From the NCBI GenBank assembly GCA_903832055.1, contig CAILAC010000016.1, forward strand, positions 558,001 through 622,000: 64,000 bases of DNA, read 5' to 3'. Each line of letters begins with the position of its first letter. Position 1 is the stretch's first letter. The notes below the pieces were generated by a model that did no database searches, had not been told where the DNA came from, and was given only the letters and a program-made list of their open reading frames with translations. A program made the translations under genes and the position numbers. This stretch comes from an uncultured Acidobacteriota bacterium. GTDB lineage: Bacteria; Acidobacteriota; Terriglobia; Terriglobales; Acidobacteriaceae. This document shows positions 3,227-33,201 of the stretch, piece by piece.

Positions 3227-3330
3227 TGCGTTCCCGGTCCTTTCAACCGGGAGGGTTGGAGCTTGGGGTTCAACAGCGTTTCAAGCGAACATCAAGGCCT
3301 TGGTAGAGATAGAGTCAGTGGACGGCTTGG

Positions 3331-3954
3331 CTACGATTCCCACCGCCTGACATAAGCGATTCCCTTTTCGTAGCGGACGACGAAGACTTCTTCGCCTCGC
3401 GGAATCGGGTCACCTGCCTCGGCGCGGGCCGGTGCTGAACGTCGCGCGCCGAGTTGCTCGTAGACGATTTCGCCGGTGCCTCCGGCGTGAATGGGGGCGC
3501 TTACCTGGCCAACTGCGCCCTCAACCCTGGTTTCCTCGGCAGTCAGTTCCCGTTCATGGGGCAACAGCACTTTGGCCATGAACCAGAAGATGATTGCGCC
3601 ACCGGCCACACCGCACAGGGCAGCCAGTAAAAATACCGTGCCCGTGACGAGAGTGCCGTAACGCGTAAGCAGATAGCCTGCGGCACCAAACCAGCAGAGG
3701 AAGACCATGATCGAAAAGGCGTTCCACCAGGGCATGTTGGAGGAGCCACGGCTTCCGGCTGTTCCAGCATGCCCATGCGGCACGTGAACGCCGTGAGGCA
3801 GATGAATGTGCCAGCCGACGTGGCCCATGCCTCCAATCAGCGAGACGATGCTCAACAAAAGTCCTGTGAGGAAGCAGGCGAAGTAGAAGCCCTCCCAGAA
3901 ATTCATATCCGGCGCAACAACGAGATTTGAACCAATCAATGTCAGTGCAATCAT
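3331..3954 (-). CDS. NfeD/YqiJ-like membrane protein with C-terminal OB-fold
   Basis: 207 residues. A first membrane segment (about 18-43) is followed by a histidine-rich loop (about 46-65, HVGWHIHLPHGVHVPHGHAG), then two or three further membrane segments (about 76-132). The soluble C-terminal domain has the NfeD OB-fold pattern: GAVGQVSAPIHAGGTGEIVY, then a conserved PIPRGEEVFVVRYEKGIAYV strand pair. The architecture matches YqiJ, the partner of the YqiK flotillin. The ATG overlaps the end of the upstream regulator gene by 4 bp, so the two are translationally coupled. Its likely role is as partner of the flotillin encoded next. The seven histidines in the loop could bind metal; no direct evidence. 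Confidence 0.82.
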   Translation of the reverse strand: MIALTLIGSNLVVAPDMNFWEGFYFACFLTGLLLSIVSLIGGMGHVGWHIHLPHGVHVPHGHAGTAGSRGSSNMPWWNAFSIMVFLCWFGAAGYLLTRYGTLVTGTVFLLAALCGVAGGAIIFWFMAKVLLPHERELTAEETRVEGAVGQVSAPIHAGGTGEIVYEQLGARRSAPARAEAGDPIPRGEEVFVVRYEKGIAYVRRWES

Positions 3955-4511
3955 CGCTTTGATGCCTTTCCTTTCTTTGCCGCTCCATTCGACGTAGTCT
4001 CCGATGAGGCTTCAGTCCGCTCGGTGGCCCCTGCTTCTGACGAAATCGCAGGGCGGAGAACTTCGATGAGGCGCGGCATCAGCCCTGGGGTTTCAAGAAT
4101 TGCCTCCAGCAGCAGCAGGCATTCCCGGGACTGGTCGTGACGAGCGAGAGTCAGCAATGCGTGCTTGAGCATGGCATCGCGACGAAAGCGCTCCGCTCCG
4201 GCCACGAGCCAAAGATCAAGCTTGTCTTCCATGCCCCGGACCTCACTCTGGAGCTCAGGATGGTAGCCCTCAGGGTCATCGACGAGGTAGCCGGGATGCA
4301 CCTTGAAGAAGTTTGCGAGTATCTGGCGTGTGGTGTTGGTGAGGTGAGGCCGCGCACCGCTCTCAATTTGCGAGAGGTAGCTCTGACTCAACTTGCTTCC
4401 GGACTGCGCTTCAATTGCACGCAGAATCTCCTGCTGGCTGAGCGCGCGATCAAGGCCGCGAAGACTGCCCTCAACCTCGCGAAGATACCGAATTTTGTCG
4501 CCGAGTTTCAT
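3951..4511 (-). CDS. XRE family transcriptional regulator, first gene of the PspA/flotillin operon
   Basis: 186 residues. An N-terminal helix-turn-helix of the Cro/C1 (XRE) type covers about residues 5-75; SQSYLSQIESGARPHLTNTT is the recognition-helix region. A helical middle follows (about 85-155) and the tail is Ala/Ser/Lys-rich. The middle resembles the C-terminal parts of other bacterial XRE regulators but I recognise no ligand pocket. It is the first gene of the five-gene minus-strand operon and overlaps the NfeD-like gene by 4 bp. Two perfect or near-perfect inverted repeats lie 63-101 bp upstream of its start, so autoregulation is likely (inference). In mycobacteria the XRE-type ClgR also controls a psp operon; that is an analogy, not shown orthology. 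Confidence 0.85.
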   Translation of the reverse strand: MKLGDKIRYLREVEGSLRGLDRALSQQEILRAIEAQSGSKLSQSYLSQIESGARPHLTNTTRQILANFFKVHPGYLVDDPEGYHPELQSEVRGMEDKLDLWLVAGAERFRRDAMLKHALLTLARHDQSRECLLLLEAILETPGLMPRLIEVLRPAISSEAGATERTEASSETTSNGAAKKGKASKR

Positions 4512-4573
4512 GGCTTGAGCCGTTCCATCTTTCTCGCTGCCTCCAGGTCAATCGACTTGGCCCGAAAACAGTA

Positions 4574-4612
4574 TATTGCAATCTGCAATAAAATATATCG
4601 CAAATTGCAATA
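4574..4612 (-). promoter_or_regulatory. Tandem inverted-repeat operators upstream of the XRE/PspA operon
   Basis: Two 17-bp inverted repeats lie in tandem: TATTGCA-N3-TGCAATA (4574-4590) and TATCGCA-N3-TGCAATA (4596-4612). Their centres are 22 bp apart, about two DNA turns, so two regulator dimers would bind the same face. A TATACT -10-like hexamer on the minus strand (4570-4575) overlaps the proximal repeat, which would suit repression. The AT-rich stretch stands out from its GC-rich surroundings. The likely binder is the XRE protein encoded 63 bp downstream; binding is inferred. Confidence 0.7.
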
Positions 4613-4726
4613 TGAGACAACGAAAATCTTCACAGCACGGAAATGGCCATGCGCAGCTATGTCAGGGCTGTTTGAGAACGGAATTTACGAGGCAAAGCGG
4701 CCGACAGGTAGGACAGGTGGAGCCAG

Positions 4727-7700
4727 TTACGGCTCCACGTTGACTGTCAGATAGGCGTTGTGGCTCACCGTCACAGTGCCCACATATGCTGCTGCCGTGA
4801 TCTTGAGCGTGTGTACGCCGAGCGGCGTTCCCCTGGTCGTGCTCAAAGTGACGGAGTTGGTGCAGCCAACGCCGGCAGTGACCATTCCAGCGAGCAGCAG
4901 GGCAAGTACCAGAGCTTTGCCGGCGCGTTCACGAAGCCAACGAACTCTGCTACCGATGGGCGCGAGCAATAGCCCGATGAATGCGAGCGCGATGCCTCCG
5001 CCAGAAACAGGGCCGAGAGGTGATTCGGGCTGCTGATTGCGCCCGACATTTCCAGCAGTTGTGGTGACGGTGAGATTCGGCGTTCCGCTGCCATTGACGA
5101 TGGAGGGATTGAAATAACACTGAATTGCGCCGAGGGTAGGGGGGTTCTGTTCCTCGCACACCACTTGAATCGGCCCGCTCAGGCCACCGAGTGATTGAAC
5201 GGTAAATGGTACGGAAGCAGAATTGCCTTGAACGATATTGATGCTGCTGATGGTCGAGCTGACGGTGAAATCCTCAACCTGCAGATTAACGGAGTTTGAA
5301 ACCGCAGCCTGGTAGGTGGGGTCGCCGAAGTAGTGGGCTGTTACCACATATTGCCCGGCCGGAATGTGTGGAACAAACACAGACGCGACACTGGAGTAGC
5401 CCTGACCAACAACAATCGGAACCTGCCCACTGATCAGCGTTGAATTGGCGTAGAACAGGATATAGCCGGAAGGATGCTGCTCTGACGTCAACGGCGGAGT
5501 GTTGACGGGGGTTACGGTCGCGGTCAGTTCTACTGCTTCTCCGGGGCCGAGCAGGTTGCTTGTGGCCACTAGAGTCACGGTAACCGGGAGCAGGTTCGGC
5601 TGCAAAATCAGCGGCGCCGCGGTGGCACTCGGAAGGTATGTGGTATCCCCGGAGTAATTTGCCGTGATCGAGTGGTTCATATTGGTGGAAAGATTGACGC
5701 CACTCAAGATTGAGGTGTTGTCGGTAACCGCTACGGACCCCAGGAAAGAAACGTTCTGGTCGTAGAAGGAAACCGTCCCCGTAATTGGAAGGGTCGTTGT
5801 CGTTGTGCCTTTAGGTGCAACTGTTGCGGTCAGGGTTTCGGGGATGCCGGTGGAAATGATGCTCGGAGTTGCCGCGACCGTCGTCACGGTGGCTACTTTT
5901 TGGACGGCGAATGAGACCGCCGACGAGGTCGAACTGTTGTAGTTGAGGTCTCCAGAGTAAACACCCTGCAAGGTATGCGACCCGGATGCTGGAACTGTGA
6001 CGGACACGCTTCCGCTGGTTTTGCCGCCCAATGTCGCCAGAGTGGCAATGCCCTGGGAGATTCCATCGAGATTGACAGTAAAAGTTCCGGTGGGCGGGGA
6101 GTTGCCTGGATTCGCCGAGGCTACAACACCGGTCACGGTAATGGTGCTTCCGCTGGCAGGGGTCGATGTTGAAGGAGTGACGATCGAGGTAGTGGAGCTC
6201 GGCTGAATATTGATCGTTACAGGCTGAGAGACGGCTGCCTGGTAGACTTTGTCGCCGCTGTATTCCGCCACAATATTGTGGCCGCCTGAGGTGAACTGCC
6301 CAATTTCAGAGTAGGCGGCGGTACCTGTCGCGCTTAGCGTGACGGGCGTCCCTGTATTCCCGCTGGTGGTCTGATCATAAAACTGCACTGTTCCGGTGGG
6401 GATTGCCCCGCCAGAGCCAGAGATTACGCGTGCAGTAAGCACGATTGTCGCAGAGGGGTTGTAGGTCTGCCCCGTGATATTGGCCATCTCGACACTCACG
6501 GTCGCGGTGCCGACATCCTGAGGCGAAGCCCAGTTGTCAATGAGGGTCTGTACGTGCAAGGAACCGAGGCCAGAAACCAGGTCGTAGCCCTCATGAGCAC
6601 TAAAGCCGATCTTGCCCTGAGCGGAGCAGTCCGGAGAGCCCAGTCTGCAATCCAGTTGGGCAGAACCATCGGTTACGTCGATGAACGCCTTGTTTTGCTG
6701 GGCTTGCTCTGCTCTGTGCATCGCGTACAGGTTGGGGGCGAGATTGCCCTGAGGCCCATATCTCTGCGCAAGCCGGGCGGCAACTCCGGCAAACAATGCA
6801 GCAGAGACTGCGCTGCCTTTGCTACTGACCAGCCGGCAGCCAGCGACTGCATTTTGCCCTGAATAGCAGAAGGCAAGGCCAGGACCAAATCCACCCGAGG
6901 GTAAACTCACGTCAGGTAAAGCACGGTAACGGCTCGCTTGAGCATCCATCTCCAGAGTTGGAAGTCCCGAAGCCGATTGCCAATGGGGCATCTGGTAAAC
7001 GGCGCTGGTACCGCCGCCGGAAGCAAATTGGGCGCCTGATTGTTCGGAGGGCTGCCAGCTGGTAAGAGAAAGACCGTCGGCAGCCAGAGAGACTGCGCCC
7101 ACTGCGGTATTCCAGGGCGTCGAAGCCAGTGCATTCACGGCGTGGCCCGTTGAAACAATTGTTGAGTCACTGGAACGATGGCAGGCCGCCGCGCCACTGT
7201 CTCCGGTTGCTGCAACGATTGCGATTCCTTCAGCGGCCGCCTGCCGGTACAGGGTTTCATAGAACTCCTGGTGAGCAGGGCTCAGGGAAGCCTCACAGGA
7301 GGTGTAGCCCACACTCACGGTACGGGCGAGAGCGCGATCAATCGTTGCGGCGAGTGCCAGGTCCAATCCATCGGTGGCGTTGGTGGATTCGACAGGTACG
7401 AGAATGATGTGTGCCCCGGGTGCAGCGACGCCGGCCCAGGAGGCGGCCAGAATTGCACTGGCTTCATCTCGGCTGTTGTCGCCTGTTCGACCCGGATCAT
7501 CGCCATTCAGCTCAACCTGCAGAGTCGCTGCTGGCAGGTCAAAACTTCGGCGGAACGCGGCAAAGTCTTCTTCGCGCACATTGCTGCGTGCGGGAATTGC
7601 AATAGACTCGCCCGCTCCGTCAGCCTGCTGTTCTGCGTGCAGACCGAGTGCAAGGAGTGAATCAGCCACACCTGGACTGACTGCACCCGACTCGGTCAAT

Positions 7701-14470: not shown

Positions 14471-15889
14471 ATGGACTTTGGCCACACAATTCGCGGCATC
14501 CGCCACACTTTTCCGCATCTAGCTGGCTTGATGGCCAGCGCGACGCCATTCCGCAGCGGTGACGCGCTTGCCGGTATCGCCGCCAAATCAGCGGAGGAAC
14601 GGGTCGCAGCCCAGTACGTGCTCGCCGACCTCCCGCTCAAGGTGTTCTTGAACGATCTCCTCATCCCCTATGAAACGGATGAAGTTACTCGGCTCATTGT
14701 CGACACGCACGACTCTGATTCATTCGCGCCAATTGCTTCACTTACGGTGGGGGAGTTTCGCGATTGGCTGCTCTCAGACAGCGCTACATCTGACCGGCTT
14801 GTCGCACTTGCGCCGGGGCTTACACCAGAGATGGTTGCCGCCGTCAGCAAGGTTATGCGTATTCAGGACCTGATCAAGGTTGCTTCGCGTATCCGGGTCG
14901 TCACACGGTTCCGGACCACGGTCGGCTTGCCTGGGCGTCTTTCAACACGACTGCAACCCAATCACCCCACGGATGACGCCGCTGGAATTGCCGCATCCTT
15001 GCTTGACGGGTTGCTGCTGGGATCAGGAGACGCTGTCATTGGGATCAATCCGGTGAGCGATAGCCCGGCGACTGTCACGCGCCTGCTGCGGATGATTGAG
15101 GCGGTCCGAGAGCGCTACGGAATTCCCGCCCAGAGCTGTGTACTGGCTCACATTACCACGCAGTTGGCCGCGATCGAGCAAGGGGCGCCTCTCGATCTGC
15201 TCTTCCAGTCGATTGCTGGCTCAGAAGCTGCAAACTCGAGTTTTGGCGTGAATCTCGGCCTCTTAAAGGAAGGCCATGAGGCAGCACAGACTCTCAATCG
15301 TGGTGGAACCTGCGCAGACGGAACCATGGGGAAGAACTTGATGTATTTTGAGACGGGCCAGGGGTCTGCACTCTCTGCGAATGCACACCGCGGGGTGAAT
15401 GGTGCAAAGATTGACCAACAGACTCTTGAGGCCCGTGCCTATGCTGTCGCGCGCCATTTTTCTCCGATGCTGGTCAATACAGTGGTTGGATTCATTGGCC
15501 CGGAGTATCTGTATGATGGCAAACAAATTACACGGGCAGCACTGGAAGACCATTTTTGCGGCAAGCTCCTCGGCCTACCCATGGGCTGCGACATCTGTTA
15601 CACCAATCATGCTGAGGCTGACCAGGATGATATGGACTCAATACTCACACTTCTCGGTGCAGCCGGAGTGAACTACATCATGGGCGTTCCCGGCGCAGAT
15701 GACATCATGCTCAACTATCAGAGCACCAGCTTCCACGATGCCCTCTATATTCGCAGTTTGCTTAGGCTGCAGCCTGCACCCGAATTTGAGGCATGGATGC
15801 GTTGCGATGGTATTGCCCGACTTCGCAGTGACGCTGCCAAGGGGATCGATGCACTTGATAGCTTGGTTGAGAGGCGGTTGCCAGGATGA
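14471..15889 (+). CDS. eutB: Ethanolamine ammonia-lyase large subunit
   Basis: 472 residues, close to the usual 450-470. The N-terminal MDFGHTIRGIRHTFPHLAGLMASATPFRSGDALAGIAA and the internal DGLLLGSGDAVIGINPVSD, MYFETGQGSALSANAH and GLPMGCDICYTNHAEADQDD are all EutB signatures. With EutC it uses adenosylcobalamin to split ethanolamine into acetaldehyde and ammonia. The stop overlaps the eutC start (ATGA), so the subunits are translationally coupled. No microcompartment shell genes, EutA reactivase, permease or aldehyde dehydrogenase gene lies alongside, so the enzyme is probably cytosolic and supplies nitrogen (inference). Confidence 0.96.
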   Translation: MDFGHTIRGIRHTFPHLAGLMASATPFRSGDALAGIAAKSAEERVAAQYVLADLPLKVFLNDLLIPYETDEVTRLIVDTHDSDSFAPIASLTVGEFRDWLLSDSATSDRLVALAPGLTPEMVAAVSKVMRIQDLIKVASRIRVVTRFRTTVGLPGRLSTRLQPNHPTDDAAGIAASLLDGLLLGSGDAVIGINPVSDSPATVTRLLRMIEAVRERYGIPAQSCVLAHITTQLAAIEQGAPLDLLFQSIAGSEAANSSFGVNLGLLKEGHEAAQTLNRGGTCADGTMGKNLMYFETGQGSALSANAHRGVNGAKIDQQTLEARAYAVARHFSPMLVNTVVGFIGPEYLYDGKQITRAALEDHFCGKLLGLPMGCDICYTNHAEADQDDMDSILTLLGAAGVNYIMGVPGADDIMLNYQSTSFHDALYIRSLLRLQPAPEFEAWMRCDGIARLRSDAAKGIDALDSLVERRLPG

Positions 15890-16749
15890 CTTTGTACCCT
15901 GACCAGGGCGACTTGGAGGTTGAATCACCCAGCATAGCTTTACCAGAGCCTGCCGGACTGGCCTCGCGACTTCGAGCACTTACCCCTGCGCGTGTGGGTC
16001 TGAGCCGGGCCGGGGAAAGCATTGCGACTCAAGAACTGCTCGACTTTCAACTGGCGCACGCACTGGCGCGTGACGCTGTCCATGCAGCTCTGCAACCAGC
16101 GAGCTTGATTTCAAACTTGCTCGACCTGGCAGGTCAGGGTGCTGTTCCGGAGTTCGGCACGCCATTGTTGTTGCATTCCGCGGCACGAGACCGAACCACG
16201 TATCTGCAACGCCCGGATCTGGGCCGCCTTCTTGCGCTAGAGAGTCGCGAACGATTGAAGCAACTTCGGAGAGACTCTTCGTTTGACCTCGCCCTGATCA
16301 TCGTGGACGGCCTGGCCGCACTCGCCGTAGAGCGCCACACGGTTCCACTACTCAAAGCTCTGCTGCCCGCCCTCAGCCAGTCGTCACCGCCGCTTCGAAT
16401 GGCCCCGCTGTGTGTCGTGGAGCAGGGACGGGTGGCCATTGGCGACGAGATCGCCCACGAACTTGCAGCTTCCCTGGTTGTTGTTCTCATCGGCGAGCGG
16501 CCTGGGCTTAGTTCTCCAGACTCACTCGGAGCCTACATTACCTGGCGCCCTCGCCCTGGACAAACTACAGATGCGGCGCGCAATTGCATTTCAAATATTC
16601 GTCTCGGGGGCCTGGCCTACGATGAGGCAGCATCCCGTCTGCTCTACTACATTCAGGAGGGCACCCGAAGACAATTGACCGGGGTAGGGCTGAAGGATCC
16701 GGATGCTCTGCAGCTTTCAATCGACAGGGAAATGCGCCTGGAAAGTTGA
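15886..16749 (+). CDS. eutC: Ethanolamine ammonia-lyase small subunit
   Basis: 287 residues. Family landmarks are LTPARVGLSRAGESIATQELLDFQLAHALARDAVH near residues 30-66, DLALIIVDGLAALAVERH, and the cobalamin-site region AHELAASLVVVLIGERPGLSSPDSLGAYITWRPRPG. The C-terminus (DEAASRLLYYIQEGTRRQLTGVGLKD) is intact. It is the partner of EutB in the B12-dependent lyase and overlaps it by 4 bp. No third gene follows on the same strand, so the operon is just eutBC. Confidence 0.96.
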   Translation: MTLYPDQGDLEVESPSIALPEPAGLASRLRALTPARVGLSRAGESIATQELLDFQLAHALARDAVHAALQPASLISNLLDLAGQGAVPEFGTPLLLHSAARDRTTYLQRPDLGRLLALESRERLKQLRRDSSFDLALIIVDGLAALAVERHTVPLLKALLPALSQSSPPLRMAPLCVVEQGRVAIGDEIAHELAASLVVVLIGERPGLSSPDSLGAYITWRPRPGQTTDAARNCISNIRLGGLAYDEAASRLLYYIQEGTRRQLTGVGLKDPDALQLSIDREMRLES

Positions 16750-21665: not shown

Positions 21666-22811
21666 GTGACCTTCCTTTTCAAATTGGTTCTGTTTCGTTT
21701 GGTTATTGCGTGTTATGTGCTTCGACCGTATTTCTGGAATGAAGCCGTTATGAATGCTGATGCACATGTTTCGGTCGAAAGCTGAGCCTTTTGATAGCGC
21801 CCTTTACACCCATTAAAAGCATCCCCTGATCCGGCCTTGAATACCAATCCGTGCGGGGCATCGACTGCTGATTGCAACTCCGGTTGTTGATTCCGGTCCT
21901 AAAAAGCTCCGTTTGACAGTTTCCGCCTAGGTGAAGCGATTTACTTGAGTGCGCAAAAAACTGGACGCACTATCGCCTAAGCATTCAAGCCCTGCGACGC
22001 GCCCCTTGTCAAGGGTAAAATTTGCGCTGACCCCAGTTCACTACCTCCGACTCAGCAACTGTTTGAGTGCGCGGGATTTAGCCATCCCATGCAATTTTGT
22101 TGAACCAGGCTGGTGCTTCCCAGTCGGCTTGATGAGTGGTTCGCTCCATTTGCACGGCCCTTGCCATCCCGGTTATGCGTTTGACTTCGGGTGCAATGAA
22201 ACGCCGACCCTCGGTTAATCGTTTAAGCAGAGGCTCCAAGCTGCTGCACGTAGCGCGCCGTATGGCATTAAATGCCGCCAGCACAGCGTTTGTCAAGACG
22301 CCTCCTAACCTCTAATTCTGTGCGGTTCGAAGCGCACAAATGTAACTGTTTTCTCGCTGAATCGCCTTCCAGATCGCGACTTGGCTCCAATCCCGGCGTT
22401 TGGCGAGGAACTTGCAGAAAATCTCTGAAGTCGAACAGGCCGCTACGCCAACTGCCACCCTGAGGCAACTGGCAATGATGCCGGCAGAAAATGCAAACGA
22501 TTACAAAAATTTGTTTGATTCCGAATAGCAAATGAAGTGCTATTGGAAATTGCGACATGGAGACAAAAATCAATGTTGATCCTCTCATATAGATACGGTT
22601 CTCTTACGGTTCTCGACGAGCGGCTTCAGATCGGTCTCAGGGCAGAGGAACTTCGACGTGCGCTTATTTTGGCTGGGCTGACGTAGTCCATATAAGTGGG
22701 GCGCGCCAGGTTGGGCCGAGTAAACATGGCCGCGAGAAAAAGTCCCCCTCAGCAGGCACCAATTGGGATATAACTGACGTGTTTTGTGATTGAACCTATT
22801 TGAGGAGGCCT
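21666..22811. other. 1.1-kb region without a supportable gene
   Basis: This stretch separates the receptor gene (minus) from the peroxidase cluster (plus) and must hold both promoters. Several short frames exist on both strands (60-106 codons), but none carries a recognisable domain or a convincing ribosome-binding site. It is more AT-rich than its surroundings and may include decayed sequence. I see no terminal inverted repeats or transposase motif that would support a mobile element. Confidence 0.5.
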
Positions 22812-23408
22812 ATGAGCAACATCAATGGCAAAGTCTATGCCATGAACGCCATTACGCCGATGAAGCCGTGGAAGACCTGGATACTCAGGCTGATTTTTTT
22901 TGTACTTGGGCACGTGAAATCGCTTCAGCAGGACTTGATCAATCTGTCATTCATCGAATTTGCCCGGTGGGTGGTCGTGCCGCGTGGCGGTTTTCCTCAA
23001 CTTGGCAATGGGCAGGAACCGGAAAAACTCACCTACGACTACCTGCTCTTCTTCAGCAACTTCAACGGCACGTGGAACCAATATATTGATGCGTTTTCCG
23101 CTGTCCTTTTCAAGGGACTTGACCTGATCTGGAAGTGGAGCGAAAAATTTCCCGGCTCGGTGCCCGTGACTATTTTCAAGGAATATATCGGACGGGTGCA
23201 GTTCGATACGGACTACTACTTCACCGCATATCCTCACGCGACCGCAAATGACCTCAAAGCTGCCCATTCCGTTCAGGCTTCCTTCGACGATCTGCGATCG
23301 CGGGCGGCAAATCTGAGTGGACCGGAATTTGCCGATGCCTACTTGAATTTTGTGCTGCAAGTGCAGCCTTATCTGGGCGAAACCGGGGAAGCGCCGGTGG
23401 TCTTTTAA
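22812..23408 (+). CDS. Unrecognised protein encoded with DyP peroxidase; paralogue of the next gene
   Basis: 198 residues from ATG 22812, preceded by a GAGGAGG site. It opens with NGKVYAMNAITPM, then a hydrophobic stretch (about 25-38, WILRLIFFVLGHV) that could be a membrane-associated helix, then FIEFARWVVVPRG, YLLFFSNFNGTWNQYID and LDLIWKWSEKFPGS. The same pattern recurs in the next protein: GKVYGLTILSPI, HLARLVVMDDVVF, YLIFESNCDAGPDGSID, LDAIWSHCVGYPGA. The two are therefore homologous and probably arose by duplication. I do not recognise a named family with certainty. The 11-bp gap to the next gene, and that gene's overlap with the peroxidase, suggest one transcript and a joint function. 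Confidence 0.75.
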   Translation: MSNINGKVYAMNAITPMKPWKTWILRLIFFVLGHVKSLQQDLINLSFIEFARWVVVPRGGFPQLGNGQEPEKLTYDYLLFFSNFNGTWNQYIDAFSAVLFKGLDLIWKWSEKFPGSVPVTIFKEYIGRVQFDTDYYFTAYPHATANDLKAAHSVQASFDDLRSRAANLSGPEFADAYLNFVLQVQPYLGETGEAPVVF

Positions 23409-23419
23409 GGAAACGAGCG

Positions 23420-24064
23420 ATGCCAAACAACAGTGGAAAAGTGTATGGGCTGACGATTTTATCGCCCATCATCAATGATGACCGGGCAACACCGTCGCAC
23501 GATTTGCAGATTCGCAGCTACCTTGCGGGCCTGTCAACGGGGCAGGATAGCCCATTTGCACTGGCACCGGGTACGCATCTGGCCCGCCTGGTCGTGATGG
23601 ACGACGTGGTTTTCGTGGGCGCGCCGGCGGTCGAGGAGCATCTCAATTCGAAATACCTGATCTTTGAATCGAATTGCGACGCTGGCCCGGATGGCAGCAT
23701 TGACGGCTACCTCAATGGGCTGGCGGAGCATGCAGCGGAGCATCTGGATGCGATTTGGAGCCATTGCGTCGGGTATCCAGGCGCGGCTGACCGCGCGGCC
23801 TTTATCCGCTATATGAAAGCCTGCCAGTTGGAAACGACCTTCTTCTTTGCCGCGATCAACGACAAGTCTGTGCCTGAGACACTGCGCGCGCTGCAGACGC
23901 AAAGAGCAGTTGCAGACTTCATCGAAAGCCATCAGGGCGTTGAGCCGGAGAAACTGCGAGCGGAGTTCCTGAAATTGGTGTCTGCTCTGGATGCAGCCCC
24001 TCTGCCAACGGTGGCGTCTGCGATTGTAAGCCGTGATATCAAGATAGGTGGCCGCAATGAGTAA
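23420..24064 (+). CDS. Unrecognised protein encoded with DyP peroxidase; second paralogue
   Basis: 214 residues. It shares its layout with the preceding protein: GKVYGLTILSPI near the start, a core strand HLARLVVMDDVVFVGAPA, YLIFESNCDAGPDGSIDGYL, then LDAIWSHCVGYPGA and a helical C-terminal half. It lacks the hydrophobic helix of its paralogue. It looks cytosolic: no signal peptide or membrane span. The strand-rich core might be ferredoxin-like, as in DyP and chlorite-dismutase relatives, but that is a guess. An AAGGAAACGAGCG stretch precedes the ATG. Its end overlaps the peroxidase start by 8 bp, so co-translation with the enzyme is likely. It may assist haem loading, regulation or membrane recruitment of the peroxidase; none of this is shown. 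Confidence 0.75.
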   Translation: MPNNSGKVYGLTILSPIINDDRATPSHDLQIRSYLAGLSTGQDSPFALAPGTHLARLVVMDDVVFVGAPAVEEHLNSKYLIFESNCDAGPDGSIDGYLNGLAEHAAEHLDAIWSHCVGYPGAADRAAFIRYMKACQLETTFFFAAINDKSVPETLRALQTQRAVADFIESHQGVEPEKLRAEFLKLVSALDAAPLPTVASAIVSRDIKIGGRNE

Positions 24065-25442
24065 GCTGAACGAAACAGACATCCAGGGCTTTGTGCTGCG
24101 CGGTTACAATCTGCCATTTGGCCGCTACATCTTCATCCACTTCAAAAACCCTGACCGTGCGGTCGTGCTGATCAGCAAGCTTCTACCCATGATTACGACC
24201 GGGCAACGATGGGATAACGGCAAGCCGCCGAGCACCGTGAACATCGCGTTTACCCATCGAGGTTTGGCGGCGTTGGCACTGCCAGATGCCACACTTTTGA
24301 GCTTTCCGGTCGAGTTTCAACAGGGAATGAAGAAGCGTGCGGAGATTCTGGGGGACACTGGTCGGAACGCACCGGAGCGCTGGGATGCGGTCTGGCATGG
24401 GGACGAAGTGCACGCCTGGCTTGGGATCAATGGGCTGACGGCCGAGGCGCTCGAGACATGCTGCTCCCAGGTGCGCGCGCTCTTTGCGGAGACAGGCGGC
24501 GCGATAGAGCTGGCGGCGCAGGATGCCGTCTCCAATATGGTCAACGGGCAGCAGACCGGCAAAGAGCACTTTGGCTATACCGATGGATTTGGGAATCCGG
24601 ATTATCTCGGCATCGAGCGAAATTCGCAACCCGGCCATGGCAAGCAATTGCCCGATGGCAGTTGGGCACCCCTGGCAACCGGGGAGTTACTGCTTGGCTA
24701 CGCAGATGAGGCGGGGGAACTTCCCATTGCGCCGATTCCGCATATCCTCGCCAGCAACGGAACCTTCATGGTCTACCGGAAATTGCACCAGAACGTTGCA
24801 ACCTTCCGCAAATTTCTTGATGAGCAGTCCGCCAACTACGGCGGAGGCCGCGAGAAGTTAGCAGCCAAGCTCATTGGGCGATGGCGCGATGGAACGCCGC
24901 TTGAACTGGCACCTGATGCCCCTGACCAATCCATCGTGAAAGACCCTACCCGCAACACCAACTTCACGTATGGGGCAGATGGGGCAGGAACACGCTGTCC
25001 GATTGGCGCGCACATGCGACGTGCGCATCCGCGCGATGCGTTTGGCTTCAACGGTAAGCTGATTGACCGTAGACGCATCACGCGACGTGGGCAAACCTAC
25101 GGACGCTTTGTGCCGGAAGGCGAGTCGGCCTCCGATGCTGAAGACCGCGGCGTAGTTTTCATGGTGCTCAACGCCAACATTTCGCGGCAATTTGAGTTTG
25201 TACAGCAGCAGTGGATTGAGTATGGCAACGACGCAAAGCAGGGAAACGATAAAGATCCCCTGATTGGCAATCACGGTGGCCATGGAAAATTCGTCGTGCA
25301 GGGAGATCGCAGCGCAAGCAATCCGCCGTTGATCTGCGGGCATCTTCCCAACTTTGTCGAACTCCGCGGCGGCGATTATTTCTTCATTCCCAGCATTACG
25401 GCACTGGGGATGATTGCGATGAAACTAGTAGATCCCCGATAA
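24057..25442 (+). CDS. DyP-type haem peroxidase
   Basis: 461 residues from ATG 24057. Diagnostic motifs are GYTDG (173-177, with distal Asp176), TRCPIGAHMRRAHPRD with the proximal haem His at 319 (His324 is also present), and RRRITRRGQTYG with the distal Arg. There is no Tat or Sec signal, so it is probably cytosolic or loaded into a shell. The length is at the long end of the family. DyP enzymes use hydrogen peroxide to oxidise dyes, phenolics and other substrates. The gene overlaps the preceding small-protein gene by 8 bp and ends the three-gene cassette. No encapsulin gene is nearby. Confidence 0.93.
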   Translation: MSKLNETDIQGFVLRGYNLPFGRYIFIHFKNPDRAVVLISKLLPMITTGQRWDNGKPPSTVNIAFTHRGLAALALPDATLLSFPVEFQQGMKKRAEILGDTGRNAPERWDAVWHGDEVHAWLGINGLTAEALETCCSQVRALFAETGGAIELAAQDAVSNMVNGQQTGKEHFGYTDGFGNPDYLGIERNSQPGHGKQLPDGSWAPLATGELLLGYADEAGELPIAPIPHILASNGTFMVYRKLHQNVATFRKFLDEQSANYGGGREKLAAKLIGRWRDGTPLELAPDAPDQSIVKDPTRNTNFTYGADGAGTRCPIGAHMRRAHPRDAFGFNGKLIDRRRITRRGQTYGRFVPEGESASDAEDRGVVFMVLNANISRQFEFVQQQWIEYGNDAKQGNDKDPLIGNHGGHGKFVVQGDRSASNPPLICGHLPNFVELRGGDYFFIPSITALGMIAMKLVDPR

Positions 25443-25748: not shown

Positions 25749-26201
25749 ATGACAAAAGAAAACCACCTGACGCACAGAGTAGAGATGGCTACGGAGACAA
25801 AGGAGGCGGAATCTCCAAAAGCTCACGCCTCTGGGCTGAACCGGCTGGCGCTCTGGATTACCCAGAAGGTCGGAACGCCTATATTTTTTCTGGGCATTTT
25901 CACCTGGACACTCATCTGGTTGCTGTGGAACATGTTTGCCCCCAGATTTTTGCGCTTCGATCCATTCCCTGGATTTGTGTTGTGGCTCTTCATTTCAAAC
26001 ATGGTTCAGCTCTTCCTGATGCCGCTGATCATGATCGGTCAGAATTTGCAGGGAAGAGGGGCGGAGGAGCGCGCGAAAAACGACTACAAGATCAATCTGA
26101 AAGCGGAAAAGGAAATCAAGCAGATCCAGACTCAACTGGCGATGATTCTTGAGCGCCTTGACGCAAAAGAGACCGGGACAAGCGAGCAAATCGCCCCATA
26201 G
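25749..26201 (+). CDS. DUF1003-like membrane protein
   Basis: About 150 residues. Two membrane segments lie near residues 39-58 (GTPIFFLGIFTWTLIWLLWN) and 72-93 (GFVLWLFISNMVQLFLMPLIMI). They flank the short conserved FDPFPGF, and are followed by GQNLQGRGAEERAKNDYKIN and a charged coiled coil (about 110-140). This is the DUF1003 plan, a small inner-membrane family of unknown function. The start is uncertain: ATG 25749 is used, while ATG 25737 and ATG 25785 are in frame. The gene lies upstream of the sigma-factor operon on the same strand, with about 170 bp between, so co-transcription is possible but not evident. Confidence 0.75.
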   Translation: MTKENHLTHRVEMATETKEAESPKAHASGLNRLALWITQKVGTPIFFLGIFTWTLIWLLWNMFAPRFLRFDPFPGFVLWLFISNMVQLFLMPLIMIGQNLQGRGAEERAKNDYKINLKAEKEIKQIQTQLAMILERLDAKETGTSEQIAP

Positions 26202-26372: not shown

Positions 26373-27080
26373 ATGATTGCCAATCGCCTAGCTCGAATCT
26401 GTGCATACTCGGGGCAAGCCCCGGAGTGGGAGGCGCTGGTTCGTCTGATGACACCTGGCGTATCAATCGCGGCAAGACGGGTGGCTTTGCTCTGGGGCGA
26501 AACTGACCCCGGAGTTGTGAGCGAAATTGTCCAGGAAGTCTTCCTGAAGCTGTGCGAGAACGACAGGCGGGTTCTGCGGGAATTCGAAGACCGGGGAAGT
26601 GACTCTTTTGTAAAGCTGATGCGTGTGATTACCGTGTCAGTCTGCACTGACTATTTCCGGCGTTCGCGTGCCGAGAAGCGTGGCGGCAGCAAACACTCGG
26701 AGCCGATCGCACCTCATTTTCATGCGGAGCAATTGCCTGATAACCGTTCCGTTACCGCTATCGAACGCTCAACCCTGACAGCTCAACTTGACGCAATGCT
26801 GCTGCGATTTCCGCGCGAAGTCAGTCCGAGAGACAGAACTCTTTTTTGGCTCTATTACCGCTCTGGCATGACTGCAGAATCCATCGCTGCCATCCCATCA
26901 ATAGGCCTGAGCTCTAAAGGAGTGGAGAGTGCTCTGCTGCGCATTACACGTCTTTTACGCAGGGCCATTTCAGGCGAAAAGACTCCTCAAGCTGAATTAG
27001 CAAAGAAAAATGGGGTTCCAGGTCAAAAAACAAAAGGCTTTTCCGTCGTGGTTGCGATAGACAGTATGAAGCAAAGATGA
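26373..27080 (+). CDS. ECF-like RNA polymerase sigma factor
   Basis: About 235 residues from ATG 26373 (a GTG at 26328 is also in frame). The sigma-2 region is recognisable in WEALVRLMTPGVSIAARRVALL, then DPGVVSEIVQEVFLKLCEND (the region 2 helix contacting core and the -10) and the region 2.4-like FVKLMRVITVSVCTDYFRR. The sigma-4 region follows (LDAMLLRFPREVSPRDRTLFWLYYRSGMTAESIAAI... GVESALLRITRLLRRAI), with a helix-turn-helix. A 45-residue basic tail continues after it, longer than in most ECF factors. Its stop overlaps the start of the CHAT-protein gene (ATGA). That next gene carries an anti-sigma-type zinc motif, so this looks like a sigma/anti-sigma pair. Confidence 0.83.
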   Translation: MIANRLARICAYSGQAPEWEALVRLMTPGVSIAARRVALLWGETDPGVVSEIVQEVFLKLCENDRRVLREFEDRGSDSFVKLMRVITVSVCTDYFRRSRAEKRGGSKHSEPIAPHFHAEQLPDNRSVTAIERSTLTAQLDAMLLRFPREVSPRDRTLFWLYYRSGMTAESIAAIPSIGLSSKGVESALLRITRLLRRAISGEKTPQAELAKKNGVPGQKTKGFSVVVAIDSMKQR

Positions 27081-30000
27081 AAAACCCACAGAACCCCAAC
27101 ACGACATTACCGACCGACGCAGAAATGATCCAGATTCTGGAGACATTGGCGCTTGCCTCTGAAGGGTCAGAGAATACCGTCACTGATATCAGTTCAGAGA
27201 GCGATCGGACGGCATTTGCCTTGCCGGATTCCCCGCAAGCCGACGATGGACAATGCCCGGCTCTCGACAGCATCTTGTGTGTTGCCAGCGGCGCGGCCGA
27301 AAAGATCGATGCCCAGCACATCCTCTCGCATGTGTGTGCCTGTGACAAATGTGCCAAATTCCTGGCGCAGGGCCTGCACATCATGAACGGCGATCCAAGC
27401 CCGGAAGAAACCGCAGCGGTTGCAGAATTGGCCGCGGCAAAGAGTGACTGGCAAAGAACACTTGCGCGGCAGTTGGCCTCAACTCCCAGTCAACGCAAAC
27501 GCCGCTTTTTCGAGCCGGTGTTCAACCGCAGCTGGGGATTGGCAGCTGCGGGGATTGCTGTCTTCCTGGCGATTGGAACCGTTCTGTTCTGGCAGTTAAG
27601 GATGAATACTCCGGATCGCCAACTCGCAATGGCCTACTCTCAATCACGCAACCTTGAATTGCGGATTCCTGAAGCTCGATATGCGGGATTTGCAGCGAAT
27701 GGTCATACCCGCGGAGGTTTGACCGAAGAGGAATCTGCACCACTACTCGAGGCGCGCGCTCGTCTGGCCCGCGAACTGGAGCGAGCACCACTGAACCCCC
27801 ACTGGCAACAACTGCAGGCCCGCGCCGATGTGCTGGAAGAGCACTATGACTCCGCGGTGGACCTGCTGGACCGACTACTCGCCGCCGGTCCCGTTACTTC
27901 AGGGCTGTTGACGGATGCAGCAAGTGCTTATTATCAGCGGGGGCTGGTCTCTGGCAATGAATCGGACCGGTCAACCGCCCTGGATTATTTGCGACGTGCC
28001 GACCAACTGGCGCCAACTGACCCCGTAGTCCTCTTCAACGAGGCAATTGTGATGGAAGACCGGGGCCAGGTGATGAATGCCGTGGAGGTTTGGAACCGCT
28101 ACCTGATCGTAGAACGAGACGCTCAGTGGGCGAATGAGGGCAGACGCAAGCTGGCAGCCCTGGAGCAGACACTCAACCGGCTCAAATTTCATGCTATCCG
28201 CATCCCGCAAATCCTCGCATCGCCTGCGGAAATGGATCGGCTGGCTCGCAATGAGGCCGACCTCTTCGCACTGGACGAAGAGTTGACTTCGGTTGAGCTG
28301 GACAAACTTCTGCTGACAGCTTTTCCTATACCAACGAATCAACAGCACGAATCAGCCGCCCGTGGTTCCCCCTGTGATCCCGCCTGCCAGTCTGCTCGTA
28401 CATTACTTAAAGCGCTCTCAAATTCATTAGAAATACATCATCACGATTCCTGGCTAGCTGACCTGCTCTCTGCCGATCTCAATTCCCTTCCTGCGCCGGT
28501 TGCACTGACATACACGCGAGCCGTACAGTCGCTTGCCAAGGCAACTCGCGAGGACCAGACCGGCTTTGCGGCGGATGGCTTCAAACTTGCCACAAGTTCA
28601 CTGGAGCTCTTTCATGAGCTCGGCAAGACTGCTCGATTTTCTCCTGCACTGCGCCCCGCCGTACGAGCAGGGGAAGCACGAGCCACCGTCGAAGTCATGT
28701 TTGCCAAGCAAAGAATCGTCGATTACGGCGGATGCAGGGACTGGGCAAAAAAAATCAGGTCTGCACAAATCTGGCGCTGGACGGAGCGAGAGTATCCCTG
28801 GATTTACGCAGTGGCAATGCTGACGAACAAGGTGTGCGACGACACGCCAGCGACAAGATTAGCTCGCCTCAAGCTGGGATTGAAAGCATTGAGTTTGGCG
28901 GAAGCTGACAACTACCAGTTGCTTGTGTTGCGCACTCAGTTGAGATTCGCCGATGATGCCCTGCTGATTGGCAACGATGAAGAGGCAGAGCGACTGGCGA
29001 TCGCGACCCTGCGTCAGCTCTACTCCTCAAATGCGCCCCTGGTCCGCATCATCAATACTCAAACTGAATTGCAGTACGTGGAGGAAGAAACCCCCAGGGC
29101 ATACACAACCGAGACTTGTCTGCGCGAACTGCTGGCCTGGTTGGCCCTGACACCGGATAACGCCAGAAGCGGTCAGATGAGGATGGCTCTGGCCCGGTCT
29201 GAACTGCGTATTGGAGAGATGAAGTCAGCGGAAGACCAAATGCGTTTGGCGCAACAGGAGGGCCAGGCTTCAGCCGAAGGGCAGTCTCACAGAGCGGACT
29301 TTTTTGAACAGGAATTTCTTCTTGCCAGCACCATGCTGGAGCGAGCGGATCTGACGAGAGCCAGCTTCTATCTCGATCAGGCGTCGAAATCGCTCGGCAA
29401 CTATTCTGATATTTGGGGCCTCCGCACATACACGTCAGTCCTGGGCCAGCTTGACCTGATGCGTAATGACCTGGATCGGGCCGCCACGGCGCTGGAGGCT
29501 CAGATTCGCCGCAGTGAAGGAATCGCCACGAGTCAAGGTGATCCGACGACCTCGGCGGAGAACGCACTCCAGGATCACGATTTATATGCCGAGTTGGCTG
29601 CAACCTGGCTGGCGCAGCATCGTCCGCCAGAAAATGTCCTCGCGCTATGGGAGCGCTTTCGTCTTCGTTCGCACGGAATACCGATTACTGCTTGCCGCGG
29701 GTTGGCGCTGGACTGTGAAGAGCCTCAAGTCAAAGCCGCGGAGCACCTGATCGATGGAAACGTGCTGATAGGACAGATCGTACTCATTGACCGGGTCTTA
29801 ACTTACAAGATGGATGAGACCGGCGTGTCATGGAGTGAGAAAAAAGTGCCACGACGCGAGGTTCTTGACGCCGCACAGAACCTCGGGCGAGCTGTCAGTT
29901 CCCCGATAACTTCGGCTGCGACTGCTGATCGACTCAGCGCCCATCTCTCTGACTCCCTGTTGCCACACTTGCCTGCGAATTTAGGCCTTTCTAACTCTTT

Positions 30001-30805
30001 ATTGCTGGAACCGGATCCTATGCTGCAAAACCTTCCCTGGCCTGTCCTATCTACCGCCGGAGGGCCTCTGGGGATTCAGTATCCGTTGTCCGAAGTGCGC
30101 TCCATACTGCTTCCCTCGCCAAAAACTGAAACTCATATCTATGATTCCAGGAATGACTCGATTTCTTACTCTGGAAGTCATGCCCTGGTTGTCGGCGCGT
30201 CGGTGGCTGGGGAAGGAGAGCTGCCACTTCCTGAAGTGCTTAATGAGGCTCAGCATGTCAATCAACTGCTGCACTCTTCGGGGGCGCTTCTTGGCTCCAA
30301 AGCTACCGCAGCGAGCGTTGCTAAAGCCCTGGGTACAGCGACGATATTTCACTTTGCAGGTCACGCTCTTCAAGGCACACAAGGCACCGAACTGCTCCTG
30401 GCCCCTGCTTCGCCCCACGACGAAATGCCCTGGATTGATGAAGCATTATTGCGTCAGAATCCACCCCGCCAGTGCCGCCTGGCTGTCTTGTCGGCATGTG
30501 CTACCGGGAATCGGCAGGCTTCCGGTCGTAACCCCTTGCAAAACATGGTAGACACACTCAGCTTCCTCGGAGTTCCGCAGGTAGTCGCAACACGCTGGCA
30601 GATTGATTCTGAAGCTGCGGTTCCTTTTGTCGACTCGTTTTATAGAAACATCGCCCAAGGAACCACAGTTGCTATGGCTCTAACTTCTGCGCGTAGATTA
30701 CAGTTCTCTCAATCTCACTTCAACCATCCGTATTACTGGGGCGCATATTACGCTACAGGTTCGGAAATTAGCCAGCCAAGGAGAGAACCGCATGTCCGCC
30801 GCTAA
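27077..30805 (+). CDS. Zinc-finger/TM/TPR protein with C-terminal CHAT (caspase-like) protease domain
   Basis: 1242 residues. A cytosolic N-terminus has a zinc-binding anti-sigma-like motif, H85-x3-C89-x2-C92, preceded by CPALDSILCVASG as in ZAS-type anti-sigma factors. One membrane span lies at about 153-174 (WGLAAAGIAVFLAIGTVLFW). TPR-like repeats follow at about 220-365 and more loosely to about 900. The CHAT domain takes up about the last 250 residues, with the catalytic dyad His1096 in HFAGHA and Cys1141 in LSACATG and the usual GVPQVVATRW and YYWGAYYATG. CHAT domains are clan CD cysteine proteases. With the membrane span, the CHAT part would face the periplasm if the zinc finger is inside, unless the hydrophobic stretch is not a true span. 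It overlaps the sigma-factor gene by 4 bp and the next gene by 14 bp. Confidence 0.88.
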   Translation: MKNPQNPNTTLPTDAEMIQILETLALASEGSENTVTDISSESDRTAFALPDSPQADDGQCPALDSILCVASGAAEKIDAQHILSHVCACDKCAKFLAQGLHIMNGDPSPEETAAVAELAAAKSDWQRTLARQLASTPSQRKRRFFEPVFNRSWGLAAAGIAVFLAIGTVLFWQLRMNTPDRQLAMAYSQSRNLELRIPEARYAGFAANGHTRGGLTEEESAPLLEARARLARELERAPLNPHWQQLQARADVLEEHYDSAVDLLDRLLAAGPVTSGLLTDAASAYYQRGLVSGNESDRSTALDYLRRADQLAPTDPVVLFNEAIVMEDRGQVMNAVEVWNRYLIVERDAQWANEGRRKLAALEQTLNRLKFHAIRIPQILASPAEMDRLARNEADLFALDEELTSVELDKLLLTAFPIPTNQQHESAARGSPCDPACQSARTLLKALSNSLEIHHHDSWLADLLSADLNSLPAPVALTYTRAVQSLAKATREDQTGFAADGFKLATSSLELFHELGKTARFSPALRPAVRAGEARATVEVMFAKQRIVDYGGCRDWAKKIRSAQIWRWTEREYPWIYAVAMLTNKVCDDTPATRLARLKLGLKALSLAEADNYQLLVLRTQLRFADDALLIGNDEEAERLAIATLRQLYSSNAPLVRIINTQTELQYVEEETPRAYTTETCLRELLAWLALTPDNARSGQMRMALARSELRIGEMKSAEDQMRLAQQEGQASAEGQSHRADFFEQEFLLASTMLERADLTRASFYLDQASKSLGNYSDIWGLRTYTSVLGQLDLMRNDLDRAATALEAQIRRSEGIATSQGDPTTSAENALQDHDLYAELAATWLAQHRPPENVLALWERFRLRSHGIPITACRGLALDCEEPQVKAAEHLIDGNVLIGQIVLIDRVLTYKMDETGVSWSEKKVPRREVLDAAQNLGRAVSSPITSAATADRLSAHLSDSLLPHLPANLGLSNSLLLEPDPMLQNLPWPVLSTAGGPLGIQYPLSEVRSILLPSPKTETHIYDSRNDSISYSGSHALVVGASVAGEGELPLPEVLNEAQHVNQLLHSSGALLGSKATAASVAKALGTATIFHFAGHALQGTQGTELLLAPASPHDEMPWIDEALLRQNPPRQCRLAVLSACATGNRQASGRNPLQNMVDTLSFLGVPQVVATRWQIDSEAAVPFVDSFYRNIAQGTTVAMALTSARRLQFSQSHFNHPYYWGAYYATGSEISQPRREPHVRR

Positions 30806-31607
30806 AGCTGTTAACACGGGCAAGAACAAGGCCACGAAGCGCAAACCCAACTCACCCTCCTCCAACTCTCAACTCGACATACTTTTTGGTGGCCCACTGT
30901 TGTTTGTTCCAGAAGTCCGCGAAGGGATCATCACAGGGGTTGAGGTCTTTTCGCCGAACAACGGTCACCCCGTCGGGGCTGTGTTTCTTCCCGGCACTTT
31001 TTTCACAGACGCCGAGTTGAACGATCCCCAGTGTCAGCGCTGGCCCGACGCAAGTAGCTTTTCACTTCTGGACCCACATAGTTATTCGATTGAGGTTTCC
31101 CAGCAGATTCCGGGCTCCAGCAAAGCAGCGAACGCGGTATTCAAGGCTTCGGATATCCCAGGCGGCAATCACAAAATCGCTCCTGGCCGCAGGGTGAGCA
31201 ACGACTGGGAGGTTTCGGTCTCCATCAAAGGCCAGCTTTCGGCCTGGGGATCGCTTCGGCTCTCAAGGGTTACCGATGATCTGTACCATGGCGCAGACGT
31301 TCCCACTTCTCCAAGCACCGCCGCCATGCACCGCCTTTCTTACTTAGGCGTTACAAGCGTTGAGTTTTACGGTGCGCCCAAAGCTCCGCGAGAGTACCTG
31401 CGGACAAATAGCTCCAAAGGGGGGACACTTATCGTCATGGGCGAGGTTCCCTATCAGCCGACACTGCTTCATGAGCGGAAGGCTATCGACGCACTTGCGA
31501 AACTCGCTGGGCTTGATTTGCATCTCGTTGCTACCGATCCTACCCCGCATAAGACACGTTTGATGATGCACCTTTCAGACTGCGGGCACTCCATCATCGT
31601 TATTTAG
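30792..31607 (+). CDS. Unrecognised third protein of the sigma/CHAT operon
   Basis: 271 residues. I recognise no family. The first ~30 residues are Lys/Ser/Asn-rich and look disordered. Residues about 30-75 are beta-strand-like (LLFVPEVREGIITGVEVF, GAVFLPGTFF). The middle has HSYSIEVSQQI and a Gly-rich loop (DIPGGNHKIAPGRR). The C-terminal quarter contains LIVMGEVPYQPTLLHERKAIDALAKL, perhaps an alpha/beta element. There is no signal peptide or membrane span. The gene starts inside the end of the CHAT gene (14-bp overlap) with an AAGGAG site 8 nt before ATG, so it is clearly co-expressed. It may be the protease's substrate, target or adaptor; this is inference from position only. Confidence 0.72.
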   Translation: MSAAKAVNTGKNKATKRKPNSPSSNSQLDILFGGPLLFVPEVREGIITGVEVFSPNNGHPVGAVFLPGTFFTDAELNDPQCQRWPDASSFSLLDPHSYSIEVSQQIPGSSKAANAVFKASDIPGGNHKIAPGRRVSNDWEVSVSIKGQLSAWGSLRLSRVTDDLYHGADVPTSPSTAAMHRLSYLGVTSVEFYGAPKAPREYLRTNSSKGGTLIVMGEVPYQPTLLHERKAIDALAKLAGLDLHLVATDPTPHKTRLMMHLSDCGHSIIVI

Positions 31608-32839: not shown

Positions 32840-32970
32840 CCTCAATCCAAAACCCTTACAGATGCGTTCCCAGCACGTAGACAGTCGAGCACCTCAGTGC
32901 CAGCGGTTTCCGCTCTGTGCGACAATAACTTTTGAAGGACTCTCGGGAACGAGAGGCGGAGGAACGTATC

Positions 32971-33201
32971 ATGGGTGAACTTTTTCAGCCGACTCACTTG
33001 CTGGTCATTGGATTGATCGTGTTTGTTCTCTTTGGCGCAAAGCGCCTGCCGGAACTGGGCAAAGGTCTCGGCGAGGGACTCAAGGGCTTCAAGGACGGCA
33101 TCAAGAGCGCCAGTGAGCCAACGGCTCCAGCAGCTCCAATTGCACAGCAACAGAGTGCAGCACCCGTTCAGCCAAAGCCCGAGGCCGTCGAGCAGAAGTA
33201 A
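32971..33201 (+). CDS. tatA: Twin-arginine translocase subunit TatA/TatE family
   Basis: 76 residues from ATG 32971, with a GGAGGAACG site upstream (a further-upstream in-frame start is less likely). A single short membrane helix (about 9-22, HLLVIGLIVFVLFGAKRLPELG) leads into the amphipathic helix KGLGEGLKGFKDGIK, then a Pro/Ala/Gln-rich tail. This is the TatA layout. TatA oligomers form the protein-conducting element for folded Tat substrates. No tatB or tatC is nearby, as in many Acidobacteriota. Confidence 0.93.
   Translation: MGELFQPTHLLVIGLIVFVLFGAKRLPELGKGLGEGLKGFKDGIKSASEPTAPAAPIAQQQSAAPVQPKPEAVEQK

Follow-up and report, generated by a model that had tools for sequence, protein, structure and literature searches.

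In a 64,000-nucleotide stretch of DNA from an uncultured Acidobacteriaceae bacterium (contig CAILAC010000016.1, positions 558,001 to 622,000; hereafter the window), three overlapping genes encode an extracytoplasmic function (ECF) sigma factor, a fusion of a zinc-motif domain, a transmembrane (TM) span, a TPR region and a CHAT protease domain, and a third protein. The fusion is probably a transmembrane zinc anti-sigma factor of the DdvA type, with an outer CHAT domain that helps to start proteolytic release of the sigma factor. Computation identifies a conserved gene order, zinc motif, TM span, juxtamembrane motif and His/Cys dyad, together with a fold match to DdvA. The system is real, conserved and of a kind known through DdvA; the layout centred on the third gene is new.

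All three genes lie on the + strand. The sigma gene (26373..27080, ATG at 26373, stop ending at 27080; 235 aa) exceeds the NCBIfam cut-off for TIGR02937 sigma70-ECF, at 44.7 bits against 42.9, and falls below the Pfam cut-off for Sigma70_ECF, at 19.5 against 21.1 bits; the genome as a whole has 25 sigma70-ECF matches above cut-off in 4.57 Mb. The fusion gene (27077..30805, 1242 aa) overlaps the end of the sigma gene by 4 bp and is itself overlapped by 14 bp by the start of the third gene (30792..31607, 271 aa), coordinates that agree with a first-pass annotation made from the sequence alone. Identical order recurs in relatives, so the arrangement of the trio is not due to chance.

The AlphaFold model of fusion residues 175-1232 (mean predicted local distance difference test score, pLDDT, 85.4) shows an extended stretch of helical repeats leading into an alpha/beta CHAT region. 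When this TPR-CHAT model was compared with known structures by Foldseek, ranks one and two were 8rw5 (E 5e-17) and 8rot (E 1e-16), both titled "transmembrane anti-sigma factor DdvA" in the PDB (TM-score 0.56-0.58 by query, 0.66 by target), ahead of separases and Craspase TPR-CHAT proteins. VIA aligned DdvA with the model over 862 residues (Z 24.1, root mean square deviation 5.6), from model residue 1 to 1054, a longer alignment than for separases or Craspase proteins. The sequence profile also finds the 8rot chain (E 2e-21), as does the N-terminal profile (E 3e-12), and in the alignment the 8rot chain has H and C at the dyad positions. The DdvA match means that a CHAT-bearing anti-sigma factor was already known and that CHAT is to be expected beyond the membrane; the separation of CHAT and zinc finger by the membrane, which the first-pass annotation had thought in need of reconciling, is therefore no contradiction. 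Its proposal that the zinc/TM N-terminal part is an anti-sigma factor is backed by DdvA as the best structural match. Its appeal to the type III-E Craspase as a precedent stands insofar as the link between TPR-CHAT and a sigma factor is shared, but the closest precedent is DdvS/DdvA, and Craspase as main model or closest relative was rejected because Foldseek put DdvA first. Passages of one paper describe DdvS as an ECF sigma factor of Myxococcus xanthus that is active once its anti-sigma factor DdvA is inactivated, the external signal being given there as unknown in 2015 (PMC4374960), and passages of another state that DdvS controls an island of cyclic oligonucleotide-based antiphage signalling system (CBASS) and type III-B CRISPR-Cas genes (PMC12288465).

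The arrangement is recurrent within the family. Among 150 genomes of the same family, a search with the fusion gave matches in 88, mostly to the CHAT end only, and the N-terminal module was found together with CHAT in 19, with fragments in one more (G137). In the loci of these genomes, together with locus L005 from an uncultured Acidobacteria metagenome-assembled genome, a sigma gene adjoins the fusion directly upstream on the same strand in 20/20 full-length family copies and adjoins the zinc half on the same strand in 4/4 split copies, with gaps of -98 to +234 bp across these 24 loci; L054 and L063 (contig ends) and L069 (fragments) were excluded from the counts, and in L070 a sigma gene accompanies a zinc-only frame. 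Loss of the sigma gene from beside CHAT had been named beforehand as grounds for abandoning the proposed link between the two, and the idea survives, the sigma gene being kept in all 24.

Beyond the family, the N-terminal profile has matches in 377 of 396 genomes of the phylum, the weak ones being to TPR only, so this figure is not a count of systems. Twenty phylum loci were picked from the stronger matches, and 18 contain a CHAT gene (L113 and L115 do not). A sigma-like gene is present in 17 of these 18, usually directly upstream (L104 lacks one). In 16 a third-like gene (246-366 aa) follows downstream in the same orientation, starting within 210 bp or overlapping in 15 and coming after an intervening frame in L117; the two without are L116, which has a clostripain gene instead, and L118. 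The trio thus recurs in the family and similar loci are spread over the phylum, so that a trio found only once, which the first-pass annotation had named as a refutation, is not what is seen. Five phylum loci (L102, L103, L106, L110 and L114) encode the zinc half separately from the CHAT half. By way of control, a match to the sigma profile was found in 3/23 CHAT loci without the N-terminal module (L066, L067 and L121), a figure that may be low, given that L125 and L126 end at contig ends and that the profile was trained on the sigma factors of this system; in a general sigma search, the fourth CHAT gene of the window's own genome also proved to have a sigma gene, at a distance of about 5 kb.

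Two of these control loci belong to the same genome as the window. L067 (G000:C16:193000-206000) is a second sigma/TPR-CHAT pair, with the sigma gene at 3681-4343 and the CHAT gene at 4340-7261, overlapping by 4 bp; its CHAT protein has neither zinc motif nor N-terminal TM span, and a relative is L121 of G144. In L066 (G000:C13:400000-412000) the CHAT gene at 4609-7404 encodes an N-terminal hydrophobic span and the sigma gene at 3041-3664 lies about 0.9 kb upstream, with a 312-aa frame between them.

Turning to the fusion protein, the zinc motif, hydrophobic span and His1096/Cys1141 dyad predicted at first pass are all present, and both the dyad and the zinc motif are conserved. The core of the zinc-finger-like domain spans residues 60-92 (27254..27352; C60, H85, C89 and C92), and its C/H/C/C ligands are invariant in the 24/24 family rows of alignment A2. 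The homologous domain scores above the zf-HC2 (PF13490) cut-off in L102, at 22.6 against 22.2 bits, but not in L005 or L060, and the window protein has no match to this Pfam family at E<=1. HxxxCxxC motifs occur twice in 12, once in 15 and not at all in 14 of 41 CHAT proteins.

Hydropathy predicts a single TM span at residues 153-172 (27533..27592, Kyte-Doolittle 2.14), with five K/R among the 15 residues that precede it and two among those that follow, and a hydrophobic span of at least 1.3 is found within the first 260 residues of 40/41 CHAT proteins. K/R are more frequent before than after the span in 28 of the 41, equal in eight and fewer in five, so that the charge bias supports the predicted zinc-inside/CHAT-outside orientation in 28 and is neutral in eight. 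In the five split loci of the phylum both halves carry a hydrophobic span, indicating that CHAT stays membrane-anchored when split from the zinc domain. It is accordingly very improbable that the span is no true anchor and that the whole protein, CHAT included, is cytoplasmic along with the sigma factor and a cytoplasmic third protein: the spans of the 40 proteins and of both split halves speak against this, as does the description of the best structural match as transmembrane, despite the absence of an export signal from the third protein throughout the window's clade and, outside the family, in most loci, and despite the pair in L067, which suggests that cytosolic sigma-CHAT pairs may exist.

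C-terminal to the helical-repeat (TPR-like) region (about residues 220-885, 27734..29731), which is defined by the AlphaFold model and has Pfam TPR matches that are all below cut-off, the CHAT domain occupies residues 954-1229 (29936..30763; PF12770, E 6e-37, 128 bits against a curated cut-off of 24). The catalytic dyad is formed by H1096 (codon 30362..30364) and C1141 (codon 30497..30499), and H and C are retained at these positions in 43/43 CHAT rows, very divergent loci among them. This is more than a scaffold needs, and argues against CHAT being a sensor or scaffold rather than a protease, with other site-1 and site-2 proteases releasing the sigma factor. Such an arrangement is considered rather unlikely, even though general site-2 proteases are present in the genome and the active site of DdvA CHAT has reportedly been called incomplete. 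DdvS/DdvA is the subject of an NAR paper of 2018 and a Sci Adv paper of 2024, both by Bernal-Bernal et al.; the 2024 paper reportedly places the TPR-CHAT part of DdvA in the periplasm, calls its active site incomplete and suggests autoproteolysis in trans, before RseP. DdvA is also reported to form a dimer with facing active sites. If so, the central hypothesis of the first-pass annotation, in which an activated CHAT domain cuts its own anti-sigma part or the third protein and frees the sigma factor, is already in print for a relative. For the present locus, cutting of the fusion or of the third protein by CHAT is hypothetical, and so is the abortive response that the first-pass annotation considered.

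Between the TM span and the repeats lies a juxtamembrane motif (residues 184-214, 27626..27718; R191, R196 and R212) recognised by alignment conservation. R....R after the hydrophobic span is kept in 50/54 rows, the exceptions being L061, where K replaces the first R, L118, L064_5938 and L063 (truncated). All three arginines are invariant in alignment A4 (34 rows), from which the more divergent of the 54 aligned rows were left out. A juxtamembrane profile built from A5 (A4 without L104, 33 rows) had no match in the PDB, the 8rot sequence included; the A4 profile matched TPR chains alone among the best 60 matches listed, and L109 used alone as query gave no match.

It is the third partner that looks new. 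Its gene is preceded by AAGGAG at 30778..30783, which ends 8 bases before the ATG and is a likely ribosome-binding site. With the single window protein as query, the gene was found in 6/150 family genomes, once each and always beside the fusion; a 22-row profile found it in 18/150, all within the 19 fusion genomes, and the fusion genome without it is G119. If G137, with its fragmented fusion and no third gene, is counted as a carrier, the figure becomes 18/20. Recovery among the carriers is partly circular, since most of these genomes contributed to the profile, but G010 and G042 lie outside the profile and were nevertheless found, beside CHAT, and the 131 genomes empty for the profile are a fair test. 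Fisher's test of 18/19 fusion genomes against 0/131 others gives 2e-22, a value that is descriptive only because related genomes are not independent draws. Two tandem copies of the third gene occur in G010 (G010:C77), G029, G106:C17 and L056; in L056 (8925-9725 and 9784-10452) only the first has a Tat-like start.

Clostripain-family (PF03415) genes lie on the opposite strand right after CHAT in L057 (9282-10931) and L116 (8240-9577), the two loci that have a family-type fusion and lack the third gene; G119 has such a gene on the opposite strand. Past the third gene lie a papain-like C39 gene in L106 (5892-6476) and, in L053 (9652-10749), a gene whose DUF4347 match is just below cut-off; both are possible effectors.

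The third protein has no match in Pfam (E<=1), NCBIfam (E<=0.1) or PADLOC (E<=0.01), and its AlphaFold model (pLDDT 81.6) has none in the PDB by Foldseek (E<=0.001) or VIA (Z>=2), which does not show that its fold is new; a search of its profile against PDB chains at E<=10 was likewise negative, Csx30 entries included. Export signals in the form of Tat, Sec or lipoprotein-like N-termini are found in 16/37 copies (L054 also shows a Sec-like start) and are absent from the window's clade (7/7 copies) and from most copies outside the family. Either the side of the membrane on which the protein sits differs from clade to clade, or its site of action is inside for some and outside for others.

These data also bear on a Craspase-like mechanism, in which CHAT cuts the third protein and the latter, cut or uncut, controls the sigma factor or is itself an effector. 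Passages of one paper state that the Craspase CHAT protease, activated by target RNA via Cas7-11, cuts the separate sigma inhibitor Csx30 (PMC10028731). The third gene here adjoins the fusion, co-occurs with it almost perfectly and is in tandem in some genomes, and an export-type N-terminus would place 16 of the 37 copies on the CHAT side. The mechanism is nonetheless thought unlikely, given that the zinc domain already provides an anti-sigma part, that the third protein has neither a structural match nor a sequence match to Csx30 or any other PDB chain, and that the copies of the window's clade would not meet an outside CHAT.

Whether all third proteins belong together is a separate matter, and a single superfamily reaching beyond the family was not established: it rests on gene position and an N-terminal strand pattern judged by eye, and few groups could be linked by comparing profile with profile. 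Inside the family, the tat group joined L050+L053 (97.6%) and L052 (88.8%), the lipo group joined L049 (93%), and tat and lipo joined each other (77.8%), with just 27% between the window's clade and the tat group; across the phylum, the P1 group joined L119 and L120 only. Leave-cluster-out ranking placed the third gene first in 8/16 loci and was significant only for L107 (E 1e-5) and L109 (E 1e-3).

Several observations weigh against the DdvA-like interpretation. By VIA, Z is about 23-27 for separases, for Craspase proteins and for DdvA alike, so fold alone does not single out DdvA, whereas the Foldseek order and the full-length coverage do. The zinc motif is missing from the window-motif column in 16/54 rows, and while some of these are split CHAT halves or truncated, one-piece proteins without it exist (L108, L111, L112, L117, L119 and L120), meaning that zinc is not universal. 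The charge bias is opposite in 5/41 CHAT proteins. The juxtamembrane motif lies in a confidently modelled segment (pLDDT 83-90), unlike a floppy exposed cleavage site, and its reading as a simple exposed cut site is weakened as a result. Finally, the window's third protein, lacking an export signal, is not obviously in CHAT's compartment.

In the DdvA-like model, which is still preferred, a single-pass anti-sigma factor would tether the ECF sigma factor to the inner membrane; its cytoplasmic N-terminal zinc domain is predicted to bind the sigma factor, and its one TM helix would lead to an extracytoplasmic TPR-CHAT region of separase/Craspase/DdvA fold. An outside signal may be read by TPR-CHAT, possibly with the third protein, and CHAT would become activated or exposed and cut the outer part of its own protein or of a dimer partner. 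An intramembrane M50 protease could then complete sigma release; the genome encodes M50 proteases, the best match (E 3e-63) being a 472-residue frame.

Regarding the surroundings of the locus, a simple scan of the window found no CRISPR-like array, in line with the absence of CRISPR reported at first pass; Cas7-11 was not searched for genome-wide. PADLOC, run on 16/52 window open reading frames (ORFs), gave nothing for the trio, and neither CBASS nor CRISPR proteins turned up; its few matches in the window, such as mad2 for a methyltransferase at 12793, look like matches to general domains. Upstream, the interval 22800-25442 holds a pair of small genes whose starts resemble each other (GKVYxM/GKVYGL...) and, behind them, a DyP-type peroxidase-like gene (TIGR01413). 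A DUF1003 gene (25749-26201) comes next, immediately ahead of the sigma gene; these are possibly a separate operon. A TatA/B/E-family gene (PF02416) lies at 32932-33201, 1.3 kb past the third gene, although the window's third protein, unlike some relatives, has no Tat signal. Ethanolamine ammonia-lyase genes EutB and EutC are located at 14471-16746.

The fusion of CHAT to an anti-sigma factor is not new, DdvA being the precedent, and CHAT proteases already connect proteolysis with sigma factors in both Craspase and DdvA. What goes beyond DdvA, as far as tested, is the co-occurring third gene, the tandem zinc motifs, the split versions and the juxtamembrane arginine motif. A tentative, more far-reaching possibility is that of a three-part system widespread in this phylum, in which a membrane anti-sigma factor brings along a caspase-like site-1 protease of its own and acts with a dedicated third protein whose fold is unseen. 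Here the third protein, exported in many clades, might be a ligand, inhibitor or substrate that sets the protease, and the arginine motif might be a latch coupling CHAT to sigma release. If true, one bacterial phylum has made the CHAT-sigma link a common signalling design with a testable third component. For the signal input, which the 2015 paper gave as unknown for DdvA, the third protein provides a concrete candidate, and the split forms, zinc-less forms and near-exclusive third gene offer natural variation for working out how the sigma factor is released.

Compared with known systems, separases share the helical repeats and a clan-CD protease domain (VIA Z up to 26.9), but are eukaryotic and soluble, without sigma factor or TM span. 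The zf-HC2/ZAS anti-sigma factors share a C...HxxxCxxC domain beside an ECF sigma gene; here, the domain escapes zf-HC2 in the window protein, is tied to TPR-CHAT and is often doubled (12/41 proteins). Release of the RseA/DegS/RseP type likewise involves a single-pass anti-sigma factor, and an M50 protease is available in this genome, but here the protease-like domain is built into the anti-sigma factor. The type III-E Craspase (Csx29 TPR-CHAT, Csx30 and CASP-sigma) has the same TPR-CHAT fold (Foldseek E about 1e-9) and also ties CHAT to an ECF sigma factor; according to the passages cited above its anti-sigma factor and protease are separate, whereas here they form one predicted membrane protein and the window has no CRISPR array. 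A literature search pairing the CHAT domain with anti-sigma factors returned the Craspase paper only, its coverage being partial, so that absence means little. DdvS/DdvA differs in its CBASS/CRISPR island, of which there is no counterpart in the 16/52 ORFs and no array in the window, and in lacking a match to the juxtamembrane profile; the present system has a zinc motif, often in tandem, as well as split versions, and may also differ in its conserved third gene. Nevertheless, DdvS/DdvA shares the pairing of an ECF sigma factor with a transmembrane anti-sigma factor bearing an outer TPR-CHAT region and provides the best full-length fold match.

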